IMG/VR virus record: IMGVR_UViG_3300018476_000044
Location: 1-23,072 of that record
DNA: 23,072 nucleotides
Direction: 5' to 3' (one strand)
From: a virus
The notes below the pieces were generated by a model. That model was not told where the DNA came from. It ran no database searches and saw nothing but the letters and a program-made list of their open reading frames with translations. The number at the start of each line of letters is the position of its first letter. The first letter of the stretch is position 1. Below, in pieces: positions 12,859-17,352 of this stretch. The position numbers were made by a program, and so were the translations under genes.

Positions 12859-13413
12859 TTATTTCATCCCAAGAAATTCGGAACGAGCGGAGTCTTCTGT
12901 CTTAAACACACCACGTAGAGCACTCGTGACAGTGTAGTGTCCCTGTTGACAGATGCCTCGCGACTCCATGCACAGGTGACGGGCCCGCACTATAACGCCA
13001 CAACCCAGAGGGTTCAGTGCTTCACTAATAGCGTCTGCGATCTGACACGTCAGGCGTTCCTGTACTTGCAGGCGGCGGGAGTAGATCTGTAGTAACCGAC
13101 CGAGCTTACTCAATCCAACGATACGTTTGTGAGGTAGGTAACCAATTGTTGCAGTACCGAAGAATGGAGCAAGATGGTGTTCACAATGAGAATAGAAAGG
13201 TAGATCTTTGATTACAACCATCTCGTCTACACCTTCGGATCCATCAACAAAGGTTTTGAGAACACTAAGGGGATCCATCTCGTAGCCTGAAGTCCAGAAC
13301 TCCCAAGCACTAGTTACACGATCTGGTGTTTCGATTAAACCTTCTCGATTCGCATCTTCTCCCTTGATGTTCTTGAGAACAGCTCTGAACGCTTCGCGCA
13401 GAGTCTCGGCCAT
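12859..13413 (-). CDS. folE: GTP cyclohydrolase I (184 aa)
   Basis: It catalyses GTP to 7,8-dihydroneopterin triphosphate, the first step of both folate and 7-deazaguanine synthesis. The zinc ligands are C77 and H80 (SHCEHHLAPF) and C148 (RHLCMESRG). The substrate-binding GLSKLGRL (100-107) and the QERLT (118-122) segments are intact. The length is slightly below that of E. coli FolE (222). A strong predicted promoter lies directly upstream, and the SD is ACGGAG with 6 bases to the ATG. In this context it supplies the pterin precursor to QueD rather than folate. Its G+C content is clearly higher than that of the gene after it. Confidence 0.95.
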   Translation of the reverse strand: MAETLREAFRAVLKNIKGEDANREGLIETPDRVTSAWEFWTSGYEMDPLSVLKTFVDGSEGVDEMVVIKDLPFYSHCEHHLAPFFGTATIGYLPHKRIVGLSKLGRLLQIYSRRLQVQERLTCQIADAISEALNPLGCGVIVRARHLCMESRGICQQGHYTVTSALRGVFKTEDSARSEFLGMK

Positions 13414-13432: not shown

Positions 13433-13461
13433 ATTATAAACGGGATGCTACGCTTTTACAA
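13433..13461 (-). promoter_or_regulatory. Sigma70-like promoter of folE
   Basis: On the minus strand a perfect -10 TATAAT (13433-13438) is preceded after exactly 17 bases by TTGTAA (13456-13461, four of six to the -35). Initiation is expected near 13426, giving a leader of about 13 bases that contains the ACGGAG SD. The -35 overlaps the 3' end of the deoxyribosyltransferase-like gene. This gives folE, the AT-rich gene, dpdA and the replication genes a start separate from queE-queC-queD. Confidence 0.65.
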
Positions 13462-13846
13462 GTAGATTCTGCAAGAATAATTTGATATCTTCAAATCTAG
13501 GTACAATAGTCGTGCAGTGAAATTTGAGCCAAGGTCCAACAGATTTTTCAGTTGGATTCCAAGCAACGATTGGAATCATTAGGCTGTGAGCGTAAAATAT
13601 TTCCATCGCAGTCCCCCATGAAGGCATATCAATTAGAGCAAGAACTGCATCGCATGACTTAATAGCATCAAGATCACCCTTGACAAGTCTCTCTACAGCT
13701 TCTTCACTGTCTTCGTCGTCGATAAATAATTCGATCTTAGTTGGATCAACTACTTCCCAGCCTTCTGGCATCTTAGTAGCGAGTTTGCGTCTCCATGAAA
13801 TTGGATCCGCTACATTTCGTATGGGACCTGCGAGATATACTTTCAT
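13448..13846 (-). CDS. Nucleoside 2-deoxyribosyltransferase-like protein (132 aa)
   Basis: The start at 13846 forms an ATGA overlap with the upstream gene. The protein opens with KVYLAGPI, the P-loop-like strand typical of this family. It has D60 within GDLDAIKSCDAVLALID and a PSWGTAMEI block in which E82 sits where the family's catalytic Glu lies. These enzymes move or hydrolyse the deoxyribose-base bond of nucleosides or nucleotides. Within a 7-deazaguanine cluster it could recycle the guanine released by DpdA or handle a modified nucleoside, but this is an inference. It might equally be a general phage nucleotide salvage enzyme. Confidence 0.65.
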   Translation of the reverse strand: MKVYLAGPIRNVADPISWRRKLATKMPEGWEVVDPTKIELFIDDEDSEEAVERLVKGDLDAIKSCDAVLALIDMPSWGTAMEIFYAHSLMIPIVAWNPTEKSVGPWLKFHCTTIVPRFEDIKLFLQNLLVKA

Positions 13847-14031
13847 GAGTGATCTACCTTGACAAGTCTCCACTCTGCAACCCATTGTTCTTTTAGTTCA
13901 CCGTTATTCCACCACGATACTTGAATCGTTACATCGTGAGGGTAGAAAGCAAAGCCTATCACAAAGGCGTTGACACTACCCCCATCGATACGTACTACAT
14001 CTCCGAACGTAAACTTGCTTTCGAGCTTCAT
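13843..14031 (-). CDS. Small SH3-like protein (62 aa)
   Basis: ATGA overlaps tie it to queD upstream and to the deoxyribosyltransferase-like gene downstream. The product looks like one compact beta-barrel: FTFGDVVRIDGG, then AFVIGFAFYPHDVTIQVSWW, then ELKEQWVAEWRLVKVD. The GDVV opening and closing EWRL resemble short phage proteins of DUF2158 or SH3-like type, though I do not claim that family. Its location inside the que operon is the main clue; a structural or substrate-handling role is possible but unproven. Confidence 0.5.
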   Translation of the reverse strand: MKLESKFTFGDVVRIDGGSVNAFVIGFAFYPHDVTIQVSWWNNGELKEQWVAEWRLVKVDHS

Positions 14032-14480
14032 TGTTCCTCCATGAAGATTGCAGAGTTAGCACCATGCTCACATACTTCAACAGACCGCATGCGTACACGC
14101 GGATAGTAACCATTGTCGACCAACCAGATCACAGCGCATTCGTAGATCATCTGTGCGAATGCTTCACAACCTGTGGCAGGCACGATAGTTATCTGGGCAA
14201 GCCCAAGGCCTGCCATGATTTCAAGAGCAGAACGATGTGGATCGTCTTCAGCAATCAACAGGCGATGATCAAAGGTCTTTTCTAACCAACCCTTGAAGCC
14301 TTTCAGGCTACCAAAGTCAACAACCCAGTTGCGATCATCTAATTCTTCTGCTTCAAATTCAATACGAACGGAGAGAGCGTAGCCGTGGAGAAATCGACAG
14401 TGGCTCTGTGCTTTCCATTGGCGGAAACAAGAGGAGAGACCTATCTCATGACCATAGGTTTTTGTTGAGATATAAGTCAT
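14028..14480 (-). CDS. queD: 6-carboxytetrahydropterin synthase (150 aa)
   Basis: It makes 6-carboxy-5,6,7,8-tetrahydropterin from dihydroneopterin triphosphate, the second step to preQ0. The catalytic Cys (C28 in SHCRFLHGY), the DxF of VVDFGSLK (D55) and the Asp-His pair D71-H72 (FDHRLLI) are present. So is the Glu in CEHGANSAIF near the end. In E. coli the zinc ligands are H16, H31 and H33. Here H32 is present, but the third position is Y34 (HGY instead of HGH) and the first aligns near C18. This is a variant metal site or a diverged subfamily. The ATG directly follows the gat-queC stop, and a GGGGG SD is present. Confidence 0.85.
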   Translation of the reverse strand: MTYISTKTYGHEIGLSSCFRQWKAQSHCRFLHGYALSVRIEFEAEELDDRNWVVDFGSLKGFKGWLEKTFDHRLLIAEDDPHRSALEIMAGLGLAQITIVPATGCEAFAQMIYECAVIWLVDNGYYPRVRMRSVEVCEHGANSAIFMEEQ

Positions 14481-15872
14481 TCATTCCCCCTTTGAATTAG
14501 CGTACTGAATGACCTCAGGTAATTTATTAATTTCGAATGCGGTCCGTCTCATGTAACAAGGGCCACATGTTCCACAGTGAATTGAGCCTGCGCGATAGCA
14601 ACTCCATGTGAGGTGCAACGGAGCACCATTGGTATGTCCAAGAGCAACAATCTCATGTTTCATAAGATTGCCTACTGGCATGATAACTCGAACTCTTTTT
14701 CCATCACCAACTGCAAAAGGGAGCATGCCATTGAAACGATTAATGAACTCAGGTTCGTTATCGGGATATGCACCTGCTTCTTCTAGATTGTTTCCAAGTG
14801 CTATTGTATTGATTCCTCTAGCTTCGGCGAATGCAGTTGCAAGAGCTAACATCACAAGATTGCGTGCCGGGACCCATTCGTGTGCAAATTCAGCCCCAGC
14901 TTCTCCACCTGCGATTTTACTATCAGCTTGAAGCAATGGAGAGTCTTCTTGTCTATAGATTCCCATTGGAATGAAATGTGATGGAACACCAAAATGGATT
15001 GCTACATTTTGAATTGCAGTTACTTCTGGACTCTCCGCTCTTGACCCATAAAGGAAATGAATTAATTCAATATCATATCCATACTTTATTATCTGTGCAG
15101 CAGCGACAACGCTATCCATTCCACCGCTACAGATAACAAGGGCTTTCTTACCCGAAAGCGGTACCATATCTAGACGTTCAGTATCGTTAGGTCCAAATGC
15201 CCAGATCGAATAAGGTTCAAGCATTTCAGGGACCAAGCCTCTTATAAAATAATCTCGAGAGCTTGCAAAAAAGATTCCATATTCTCGTCTGGCCATCCAA
15301 ATGGGTCTATAGTTGCAGGCAGCTAATATCAGATCTGGAAAGTCATCGTGTGTTGCTAGGATTGCGTAGCTACCTTTGAGTTTACCAATGATAAGTTGAA
15401 ATACATATTTTGCGAGTTCGCGATCCTGGATATCGCCTGCGGCAGCAAGTTGCTCAACAATTGCCACGCTATCGATACCAGTTGTGGTACCTTCATCCGT
15501 TCGCAGTTCTTTATCGTTTGCGATGGTTCCGTTGTGGACAATATTCCACTTATTGAGTGAATAGGGTTGCTGATCGTATTCGCGTTTGTGGCGTACAAAC
15601 TCCGTTGTCGGCTCGGCGCGGAAGTTACCAATCATATTCTTAGTTGGACTAAAGATATTAAGACTAAAGAATTCGTGTTGTGTTTCCCAACCTGTTGATC
15701 TTATAATCGATTTATTTTTATGACCTACAGTAAGACCGTCCCTGACATAATATCCCCACCCATCGCGACCACGTGCAAAGCTTTCATTTCCAATATAATT
15801 CAAAATACGATTGGCATCAAGACGTTCGTACGCAGTTGCATTCCAAATGAGGGCTCCCATGATTGCGCACAT
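14481..15872 (-). CDS. queC: Glutamine amidotransferase-QueC fusion (463 aa)
   Basis: Residues 1 to about 235 form a class II glutamine amidotransferase: Cys2 nucleophile after Met removal, GNFRAEPTT (82-90), HNGTI (113-117) and D134-S135. Residues 241-463 form QueC, the ATP-dependent 7-cyano-7-deazaguanine synthase. It shows the SGGMDS PP-loop (249-254), VPARN (334-338) and the zinc cysteines C425, C433, C436 and C439. QueC turns 7-carboxy-7-deazaguanine into preQ0 using ammonia. Gat-QueC fusions occur in some archaea (archaeosine synthesis) and in phages of the 9g type whose DNA carries deoxyarchaeosine. All catalytic residues of both domains are intact, so conversion of preQ0 to the formamidine is predicted. 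Confidence 0.93.
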   Translation of the reverse strand: MCAIMGALIWNATAYERLDANRILNYIGNESFARGRDGWGYYVRDGLTVGHKNKSIIRSTGWETQHEFFSLNIFSPTKNMIGNFRAEPTTEFVRHKREYDQQPYSLNKWNIVHNGTIANDKELRTDEGTTTGIDSVAIVEQLAAAGDIQDRELAKYVFQLIIGKLKGSYAILATHDDFPDLILAACNYRPIWMARREYGIFFASSRDYFIRGLVPEMLEPYSIWAFGPNDTERLDMVPLSGKKALVICSGGMDSVVAAAQIIKYGYDIELIHFLYGSRAESPEVTAIQNVAIHFGVPSHFIPMGIYRQEDSPLLQADSKIAGGEAGAEFAHEWVPARNLVMLALATAFAEARGINTIALGNNLEEAGAYPDNEPEFINRFNGMLPFAVGDGKRVRVIMPVGNLMKHEIVALGHTNGAPLHLTWSCYRAGSIHCGTCGPCYMRRTAFEINKLPEVIQYANSKGE

Positions 15873-15873
15873 C

Positions 15874-16593
15874 TTATTCTACCCCGAGATATTTGTGGAT
15901 TTGCAATTGTAGCTTATAGCCGAACTTCATGCAAGACTCAGTTACGGCTTTGATATTCCGTTCATTGTGCGCAGGATCCTTTGTATCCATTGGTTGGAGA
16001 TAGATTGGCTTATCCCAGTCAACAGGAGGTCGCGCAAGCTGAGGATGAGCAGTGTGGCCGAGGGCGCGAATCGGAAGGCCGTCTTCTGGATTCATACTGT
16101 CTGCATCGAGAACATATTTGAGACAGAGTGCCTTATCTAAAAGTATTGGATTGATACGTCCAGTCTTTGGACTGCAGACGATATGGACCCCGTGGAAATG
16201 ATCGATCCGAGTATATATTGAATACTCGTAATCGCTCGGAGGGAGAGTTCCGTTACTCTCAACCTGAACGAGATGTCCAAGTGCTACAAGATGCTCAAAC
16301 AGATTAGTCAGATTTTGCCTGAACGGTTCCCCACCCGTAATAACTACGAGACCTTTCGGTAGGCTCAGTGAGTTCACATACTTTGCAACGACCGAAGGAT
16401 GTGCAAGGCGTCGCCCCTGGGTATATTCGGTATCACAGCCAGGGCACTGGAGATTGCATCCAGCGAGCCGAATAAAAACGGCGGGGAACCCACTGAAAGG
16501 TCCCTCGCCCTGGATGGTGTAGAAGATGCTGTGGACGTCGAGCAATCCCTCAGGATGCTCAACCGACTTCTCGATTGCCTGTTGATTTAACAT
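15874..16593 (-). CDS. queE: 7-carboxy-7-deazaguanine synthase, radical SAM (239 aa)
   Basis: It rearranges 6-carboxytetrahydropterin to 7-carboxy-7-deazaguanine. The cluster-binding motif is C46-x3-C50-x2-C53 (CNLQCPGC) with DTEYT after it. TIQGEGPFSGFPAVFIRLAGC is the classic QueE opening, and ITGGEP (85-90), VESNG (111-115) and CSPKTG (140-145) are all present. The length is normal for the family. It is the first gene of the que operon, with gat-queC one base downstream. The SD GGAG lies six bases before the ATG inside a GC-rich leader that can form two alternative hairpins. Confidence 0.94.
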   Translation of the reverse strand: MLNQQAIEKSVEHPEGLLDVHSIFYTIQGEGPFSGFPAVFIRLAGCNLQCPGCDTEYTQGRRLAHPSVVAKYVNSLSLPKGLVVITGGEPFRQNLTNLFEHLVALGHLVQVESNGTLPPSDYEYSIYTRIDHFHGVHIVCSPKTGRINPILLDKALCLKYVLDADSMNPEDGLPIRALGHTAHPQLARPPVDWDKPIYLQPMDTKDPAHNERNIKAVTESCMKFGYKLQLQIHKYLGVE

Positions 16594-16599
16594 GTCTCT

Positions 16600-16637
16600 C
16601 TCCGGGAGGTAGCCCCGGAGGCGAATTCCTCCGGGGC
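16600..16637 (-). promoter_or_regulatory. queE leader with two mutually exclusive hairpins
   Basis: On the minus strand a 10-bp stem (GCCCCGGAGG/CCTCCGGGGC, 16612-16637, six-base loop) lies just before queE. The 3' arm of that stem also contains CTCCGGG (16614-16620), which is exactly complementary to CCCGGAG at 16600-16606. That second segment holds the SD of queE, so an alternative 7-bp hairpin with a seven-base loop would hide it. The two structures cannot coexist. No U-run follows, so a simple terminator is unlikely. A translational switch is inferred. Confidence 0.5.
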
Positions 16638-16658
16638 AGGTTTCGGCGAGACGTTAAA

Positions 16659-17222
16659 TCAGGCAGCCGGCTGCGTTTGCGGTGCCGCAGTCGGGGCGAG
16701 CGACGGGGTCGGCGGAATCATACCGGACAGACCGTGGAACTTCTTCCACCGCGGGTATTCCGCTTTGACGTTGCCTTCGTTCAGCTCGCTGCCCTTGGAC
16801 ATCGCTGCACGGATTTCCGCCGCGGCGACAGGAGCGCCTTTCGCCTGAGACAGCTGATCGAACAGCGCCCACGCTTTGCCGCACTCGCCTTCCGGTTTCG
16901 GCCGGCGGATGCCGTTCTGCTCGGGCTGCTTCGCCTGCTCCTTCTGAGCCTGTTTGGCTGCCTTCGCTTCGTTCTTGGCGAGCACTGCCGCAGCCTTGGC
17001 CTCTTCCTTGGCCTTCTTCTCGGCCTGCTTCGCTGCCTTGGCAGCTTCCTTGGCTTCAGCAGCAGCGTTCTTCTCCGCCTCCTTGGCGGCCTTGGCAGCT
17101 TCCTTCTCTGCCTTTTTCGCTGCGGCTTCCATCTCCTTCTGTGCTTTCACATCCGGAGCCTGCTCACCAGGGGCGACTGCTGACGGAGGGGCAGCCCACG
17201 CGGGATCGGTCTGTTGGTTCAT
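16659..17222 (-). CDS. Lys/Ala/Glu-rich helical protein (187 aa)
   Basis: A strong AAGGAG SD precedes the ATG. Residues about 27-100 are almost only Ala, Lys, Glu and Gln in a KEAAKA-type pattern, predicted to form one long helix or coiled coil resembling histone H1 tails. Residues about 104-168 form a separate folded part: RRPKPEGECGKAWALFDQLS, VAAAEIRAAM, and NVKAEYPRWKKFHGL. The end is Pro/Ala-rich. The C-terminal part looks like a conserved phage domain of unknown function. The gene is much richer in G+C than its neighbours, largely because of Ala codons. It may bind DNA or RNA; this is not shown. Confidence 0.6.
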   Translation of the reverse strand: MNQQTDPAWAAPPSAVAPGEQAPDVKAQKEMEAAAKKAEKEAAKAAKEAEKNAAAEAKEAAKAAKQAEKKAKEEAKAAAVLAKNEAKAAKQAQKEQAKQPEQNGIRRPKPEGECGKAWALFDQLSQAKGAPVAAAEIRAAMSKGSELNEGNVKAEYPRWKKFHGLSGMIPPTPSLAPTAAPQTQPAA

Positions 17223-17311: not shown

Positions 17312-17352
17312 AAATAAAAAGACAGAGCGGAGAACGATCTCCGCACTGTCTT
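17312..17352 (-). terminator. Intrinsic terminator after the DUF932 gene
   Basis: Starting 13 bases past the DUF932 stop, the minus strand forms a stem AAGACAG/CTGTCTT plus GCGGAGA/TCTCCGC, separated by one mismatch, with a four-base loop. It is followed directly by TTTTTATTT. Stem strength and U-run are those of a Rho-independent terminator. Confidence 0.88.

Follow-up and report, generated by a model that had tools for sequence, protein, structure and literature searches.

In many phages queE helps to make an altered DNA letter, and in the virus record analysed here (23,072 bases in all, hereafter the window) it is the opening gene of a 7-deazaguanine (DNA modification) cluster. The question raised by this locus is whether the short leader in front of queE carries a regulatory RNA and, if so, how that RNA would act. 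The original prediction was a switch between two mutually exclusive folds, in which the 3′ arm of a 10-bp hairpin swaps partner and hides the SD of queE. The genes around the leader are the following.

17222..16659, minus strand: upstream open reading frame (PHROG 18634, function not known), directly 5′ of the queE leader
16658..16594, minus strand: gap between the upstream frame and queE, the queE leader, 65 nt
15874..16593, minus strand: queE, QueE-like radical SAM protein (PHROG 2076, E 9.1e-56)
15872..14481, minus strand: gat-queC (Pfam), downstream of queE
14480..14028, minus strand: queD (Pfam), downstream of queE
13885..13448, minus strand: gene with a Nuc_deoxyrib_tr domain (Pfam), downstream of queE
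13413..12859, minus strand: folE (Pfam), downstream of queE

The order on the minus strand is helicase, unknown genes, the PHROG 18634 gene, leader, queE, gat-queC and queD, followed by the Nuc_deoxyrib_tr gene, folE, a family-less gene, a PHROG 887 gene, clamp and DNA polymerase. The Pfam radical-SAM match of the window QueE lies under the curated cut-off. The product of the PHROG 887 gene is queuine tRNA-ribosyltransferase-like, and the gene presumably sits in the place of DpdA. The annotated gene order in Nipunavirus phages and in Sphingomonas phage MMDA13 is much like that of the window. The gene under control of the leader is presumed to be queE. Further upstream, between two unknown genes, a terminator-like hairpin (GCGGAGATCGTTCTCCGC) with a T-rich tail (TCTGTCTTTT) lies at 17344..17327 on the minus strand.

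Architecture of the queE leader

The 65-base gap and its hairpin are as originally described: the gap spans 16658..16594 on the minus strand, and the hairpin is a perfect 10-bp stem, GCCCCGGAGG-AAUUCG-CCUCCGGGGC, at 16637..16612. An 82-nt stretch covering the leader folds at −41.7 kcal/mol, compared with −20.0 ± 3.1 kcal/mol for shuffled sequences (z = −7.0), and none of 200 shuffles matched the native fold energy. Judged by comparison with its relatives, the hairpin belongs to a larger conserved RNA element. The earlier proposal had overlooked a second stem, P1, in which the SD pairs with a CCG just 5′ of the hairpin; compensating changes keep P1 paired, and the single-stranded letters that separate P1 from the hairpin vary very little. 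The parts of the element in the window are listed below, with the hairpin as P2.

16596..16649, minus strand: whole element (match to covariance model R1), 64.6 bits and the sole window match at E up to 1, with a window-clade leader of identical letters (L011) among the 17 training rows of R1
16644..16646, minus strand: P1 5′ strand, CCG, whose partner in the best fold is the CGG of the SD
16638..16643, minus strand: internal loop 5′ side, AAACCU, with AACC at loop positions 2–5 in 32 of 35 leaders
16628..16637, minus strand: P2 5′ arm, part of the hairpin of the original prediction, with a double change in 9 of 10 modelled pairs
16622..16627, minus strand: apical loop, varying in length and sequence among relatives
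16612..16621, minus strand: P2 3′ arm, covariation as for the 5′ arm
16605..16611, minus strand: internal loop 3′ side, UACCUCC, with an A-Y-Y-U core in 32 of 35 leaders
16602..16604, minus strand: P1 3′ strand, CGG, the first letters of the SD CGGAG, identified by fold, covariation and the P1 pairing test
16594..16601, minus strand: remainder of the SD and spacer up to the queE start, AGAGAGAC

The layout common to the relatives is P1, then [A/C/U]AACC, P2, AYYU and the closing 3′ strand of P1, which abuts or overlaps the SD, followed by the queE start. From P1 to P1 the element reads CCG-AAACCU-GCCCCGGAGG..CCUCCGGGGC-UACCUCC-CGG in the window, GGG-AAACCU-GCAAAGGGGCA..UGCCCCUUUGC-UAUCUAC-CCC in PaMx25 and CCG-CAACCUC-CUAAGGGUGCA..UGCACCCUUAG-AAACCUC-CGG in a further relative, L227. 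These loop letters are common to leaders whose QueE proteins are ∼50% identical. Thirty-five leaders were parsed by hand, and among them P1 takes the forms CCG/CGG (28), GGG/CCC (4), CCC/GGG (2) and CGG/CCG (1). P2 is free in its letters, with 25 distinct 5′ arms, and it is 2–17 bp long, with merely 2–3 bp in three leaders. G is absent from all 480 letters of the two loop sides as parsed, partly by construction, because the parse assigns pairable G to stems. With starts taken from tblastn or annotation, 4–16 nt separate the end of P1 from queE in 33 of the 34 leaders measured, and 8 nt in the window clade; the outlier, L195, has 34 nt to a start placed by tblastn. How P1 engages the SD varies: it takes in part of the SD in the window and the GAGG of the SD in phage 9g, and in the GGG/CCC members it lies just upstream of the SD.

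The proposed alternative pairing fares less well. The 3′ arm of P2 is indeed complementary over 7 bases to the SD region (CUCCGGG/CCCGGAG), but forcing this pairing on the 65-nt gap gives −23.3 kcal/mol against −32.9 kcal/mol for the best fold, 9.6 kcal/mol weaker, and its computed probability in the window leader is ∼1e-6. Nor is it kept. Of 34 parsed members, three, each from the clade of the window itself, can pair the P2 3′ arm with the SD region over at least 7 consecutive bases; two more from that clade and one Nipunavirus have runs of 6, and the remaining 28 have runs of 2–5. Thus, when both stems are followed through the relatives, the hairpin stem is conserved and the alternative stem is not, and the two-fold switch is rejected because its alternative pairing is both weak and not conserved.

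Two other pairings were considered and dropped, both by eye. An outer stem joining the upstream-stop region to the queE-start region in a longer window fold is imperfect in L013 and gone in L014–L020, and a pairing of AACCU in the first loop with AGGUU after the SD is present in NP1 and L202 and missing from the window, L182 and L195. One relative, L012, has lost a base in the P2 5′ arm, either in reality or by sequencing error.

Covariation and occurrence among phages

Alignment of 17 leaders (A4) gave 94.0% of cells paired, compared with 64.6% after shuffling, and a covariation score of 0.661 against 0.141, a value that none of 500 shuffles reached. Double changes were present in 11 of the 13 pairs and never seen in the other two. 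When the partner was slid by one column, pairing fell to 54–57%, and the true register beat every slid version. A second alignment of 29 leaders (A6), which was fitted to the model and is thus biased towards it, had 91.9% of cells paired, double changes in 11 of 13 pairs and a score of 0.396 versus 0.080. All such pair counts are inflated, because these same sequences were also the source of the structure and the parse.

P1, with its 3 core pairs, was assessed separately. At second-loop lengths of 6–8, 31 of the 35 leaders pair, where permutation gives a mean of 22.6 and none of 2000 permutations reaches 31; in a control, 17% of 945 other upstream triplets pair. Holding the loop at the single length of 7 leaves 18 of 35 leaders paired, a weak excess that 42 of 2000 permutations equal. 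The two CCC/GGG leaders are weak evidence for P1, because CCG would pair there too. A quick QueE tree, whose leader-class labels omit several members (L014, L224, L267 and others) and from which this one figure was taken, implies at least 6 changes of P1 type. In single-sequence ensembles the probability of P1 ranges from 0 to 0.98 (median 0.71), and the RNAalifold consensus on A6 draws P2 and omits P1. The general mark of a riboswitch, a leader whose conserved fold is upheld by compensating changes, is found here, and the structure, the covariation and the placement before queE are established by sequence comparison.

The placement rests on searches of relatives fetched via QueE from viral contigs (the best 80 of 582 QueE-bearing stretches) and from named phages. 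Model R1 was built from 17 leaders and R2 from 29, and both strands were searched with R1. In 98 sources (391 kb), R1 matches with E < 0.01 are confined to the site immediately 5′ of queE, and the strongest match elsewhere has E 0.03; in 80 sources (624 kb), the best match away from queE has E 0.16. The whole NP1 genome, searched as two overlapping pieces, has a single match, before queE. Leaders outside the training set were also found, namely L232 (2.5e-7), L177 (5e-6), L249 and L238 (both 1.7e-4), MMDA13 (2e-4), L180 (0.0016), L224 (0.0032) and L231 (0.0039).

At E < 0.01, R2 matched 42 of 133 distinct queE contigs (37 of 80 and 5 of 53), which is not an unbiased frequency because the 133 were picked by QueE similarity, and 27 of the 42 are training contigs, this set having supplied 27 of the 29 training leaders. 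Most of the other 15 are near copies, and L228 had served to build R1; only L224 and L259 are both independent of the two models and distinct enough not to count as near copies. Each R2 match is directly before queE, with none elsewhere in the fetched stretches. The remaining 91 of the 133 contigs have no R2 match at E < 0.01, and therefore the pathway does not need the element.

When 40 records were searched whole, 32 matched at E ≤ 0.05, 28 of them once and 4 with a second, weak match. Five hand-parsed members were missed (L194, L225, L258, L259 and L266), of which L259 was recovered by R2. The extra weak matches, at four places, have E 0.003–0.026; those of G008 and G009 are inside coding regions, lack the fold and were discarded, and that of G025 is 26 nt long. 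In G017, a record that also carries the element before queE, the extra match (L347:893-941, minus strand, E 0.003, CCGAAACC) has a partial stem and lies where one reading frame finishes, immediately ahead of the ATG of a second.

A loose DNA pattern found at least 80 loci in viral contigs: 11 have stems of at least 10 bp, all before queE, and among the other 69 loci listed, L058 has 8 bp (before an apparent tRNA) and 68 have at most 5 bp and are taken as chance. A second viral pattern gave 6 hits, two of them known members and the remainder scoring at most 15.3 bits. The five hits of a pattern scan of cellular genomes for one subtype reached at most 14.5 bits with the model and were likewise set aside as chance; the element was thus seen here only in phages, cellular genomes having been scanned for that one subtype.

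Among named phages, the element is present in Nipunavirus and in Sphingomonas phage MMDA13, and copies from Xanthomonas and Variovorax score the same as those of Nipunavirus. Of ten other named phages searched, JG054 and JG012 have matches at 1e-11, JenK1 and Klebsiella phage K9PH25C2 reach 13 bits at the right place, and CAjan, SD04, Iggy, Bhz54 and RHph_I36 have no model match. MiCath reaches 15 bits across part of the model and was not counted as a member; its leader has its own long hairpin. Leaders of the 9g type score only 13 bits (E about 0.3), and by computed folding phage 9g and its kin appear to have a diverged form of the element. They fold into the same layout, with AAACU or CAACU in the first loop and a second loop that, as folded, is longer and begins with G. 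P1 over the SD is 7 bp in 9g and 5 bp in the Klebsiella type, the fold with the 7-bp P1 being the one computed as most stable for 77 nt of 9g, and two double changes separate the P2 stems of the two groups. Phage 9g infects E. coli, and for two of its relatives, JenK1 and FritzHoffmann, the listed host is E. coli K-12.

Leaders of other kinds also occur before queE. In ten relatives (L183, L185, L188, L192, L212, L219, L241, L296, L303 and L309), CCCG(U/C)AC is followed by a free-sequence stem, uninterrupted over 5–12 bp in 7 of the 10, and then by UCYUC and GAGG; Rfam searches of nine of the ten returned nothing except tRNA. A third type, seen by eye in L036 (= L008, BcepGomr), L037, L038 and L041, carries CCCUUAGU after a short hairpin, which reads CCGGC..GCCG in three of them. 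Were the element a riboswitch for a 7-deazaguanine compound, both types would be additional answers to the same regulatory problem. Also by eye, a −10-like hexamer (TACAAT, TATAAT or TAAACT) lies at the centre of a short inverted repeat upstream of the element at L222, L258, L272, L201, L216, L238, L240 and L259, with arms that vary (e.g. GCGGTACAATACCGC); L201 and L216 have the hexamer and no model match at E < 0.01. The hexamer with its repeat is possibly a phage promoter with an operator.

Proposed control of queE and competing explanations

The part of the original prediction that called for a regulatory RNA acting at the SD of queE is supported by the covariation, the site before queE and the lack of an Rfam match. 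The element is probably an undescribed switch for queE, since its fold was kept while its letters changed and it reaches the ribosome start site. On balance, we favour a cis-regulatory RNA in which P1 closes over or beside the SD and limits translation of queE, perhaps in response to a 7-deazaguanine product. When its internal loop is organised by a partner, P1 would close and fewer ribosomes would load on queE; without the partner, P1 would open and queE would be translated. The likeliest partner would be a pathway metabolite, either preQ0, the precursor of preQ0 or a base of the archaeosine type, and the element would then be a translational feedback riboswitch; a guanine-like ligand would find partners in the C, U and A of a G-free loop. 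The ligand, the OFF direction and the assignment of control to translation are all inferred. The distance from the upstream stop to P1 (known or annotated stops only) is 12 nt in the window and in K9PH25C2, 36 nt in PaMx25, 40 nt in JG054 and 67 nt in MMDA13; the element thus keeps near the queE start and not the upstream stop, which points to initiation on queE, and the pathway to which queE belongs suggests a 7-deazaguanine ligand. The fuller claim of a new, phage-confined riboswitch class that senses a phage-made 7-deazaguanine compound and throttles queE is put forward tentatively.

As the main alternative, the same conserved RNA could be the operator of a protein, either an autogenous or other phage-encoded translational repressor or a host protein, bound to the internal loop and the SD. 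Conserved unpaired letters between free-sequence stems fit such operators too, as do the single match in 28 of the 40 records searched whole and the gene of no known function (PHROG 18634) just upstream of the leader; five of the ten window proteins scanned have no Pfam family, and a regulator could therefore be among them. We nevertheless consider a protein partner rather unlikely, as the loops, whether from Pseudomonas or Sphingomonas phages, are much alike across leaders whose QueE proteins share about half their residues, copies from Xanthomonas and Variovorax score as the Nipunavirus ones do, and the Pfam matches include no RNA-binding family. The computed results do not tell a metabolite partner from a protein one. 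Control might also need no partner molecule, if a ribosome finishing the upstream gene opened P1 and thereby let queE start. Such coupling or insulation would suit the 12-nt distances of the window and K9PH25C2 (the latter from annotation) and the longer window fold in which the regions of the stop and the start are paired, but the annotated stops of PaMx25, JG054 and MMDA13 are much farther off, the stop–start pairing is lost within the window's own clade and the conserved loop letters are left with no role, so that we regard this explanation as improbable.

Depositors have read the hairpin differently, as an intrinsic terminator, which here would mean termination or attenuation between the upstream gene and queE. 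Terminators are annotated at the hairpin in PaMx25 (L001:3302-3327, exactly P2), SP8 and HdK1, that of Seurat at the same place has a U-run, and the tail after P2 is U-rich in the 9g type (UUUGUUAUCUU). The window tail (UACCUCCC) has no U-run, a terminator scan of the window did not call the queE-leader hairpin, and the letters conserved after P2 are A-Y-Y-U, not U. This explanation, which leaves both the pairing of P1 and the conservation of the loops unaccounted for, is very unlikely.

Presumably, phages with 7-deazaguanine in their DNA must balance synthesis of the altered base against the drain on GTP and the upset of host tRNA modification. A conserved RNA before queE makes the control of these phage genes testable, with a diverged form at hand in E. 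coli phage 9g, and if a ligand were found, a phage pathway for DNA modification would turn out to contain its own sensor.

Relation to known regulatory RNAs

In the parts of the literature on phage 7-deazaguanine and queuosine genes that were covered, which left subscription journals and preprints outside, the element is not described and no account of the control of these genes was found. In the portions seen, PMC6884629 does not contain 'riboswitch', 'leader' or 'hairpin', PMC7472734 (MMDA13) mentions predicted promoters and terminators with no 'riboswitch' or 'hairpin', and PMC4342423 (Seurat) has 'riboswitch' solely within a reference.

Rfam at gathering score had no matching family in the window and no leader family in the loci of 15 relatives; at E up to 1, 18 loci gave tRNAs only, and at E up to 10 the window leader gave five sub-threshold matches only. 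The preQ1-I riboswitch (which we take to be Rfam RF00522) has no gathering match in the window and is absent from those five, and the preQ1-II and preQ1-III models match neither the window, the leader nor the relatives' loci. The expectation that the element falls outside the known preQ1 classes thus agrees with the lack of any Rfam match.

PreQ1 riboswitches I–III are small leader RNAs on 7-deazaguanine (queuosine) genes that often hide the SD, and the queE element resembles them in being a small leader RNA at the SD of such genes; they are pseudoknots, whereas the queE element has an internal loop between two stems. The annotated 'terminator' of PaMx25, SP8 and HdK1 occupies the same site as the element, which differs from a terminator in having no conserved U-run and in its extra conserved stem and loops. 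Phage translational operators such as those of T4 gene 43 and regA share with it a structured or conserved RNA over a phage SD, but they are hairpin-loop or linear sites and the queE element is built of two stems and an internal loop. In small OFF riboswitches a stem closes at the SD, the unpaired core is conserved and the apical stem is free to vary. The queE element is like the translational members of that group in its unpaired core between covarying stems, in having the SD in or by the closing stem and in its place before a single gene of a single pathway, the pathway being what suggests a possible ligand.
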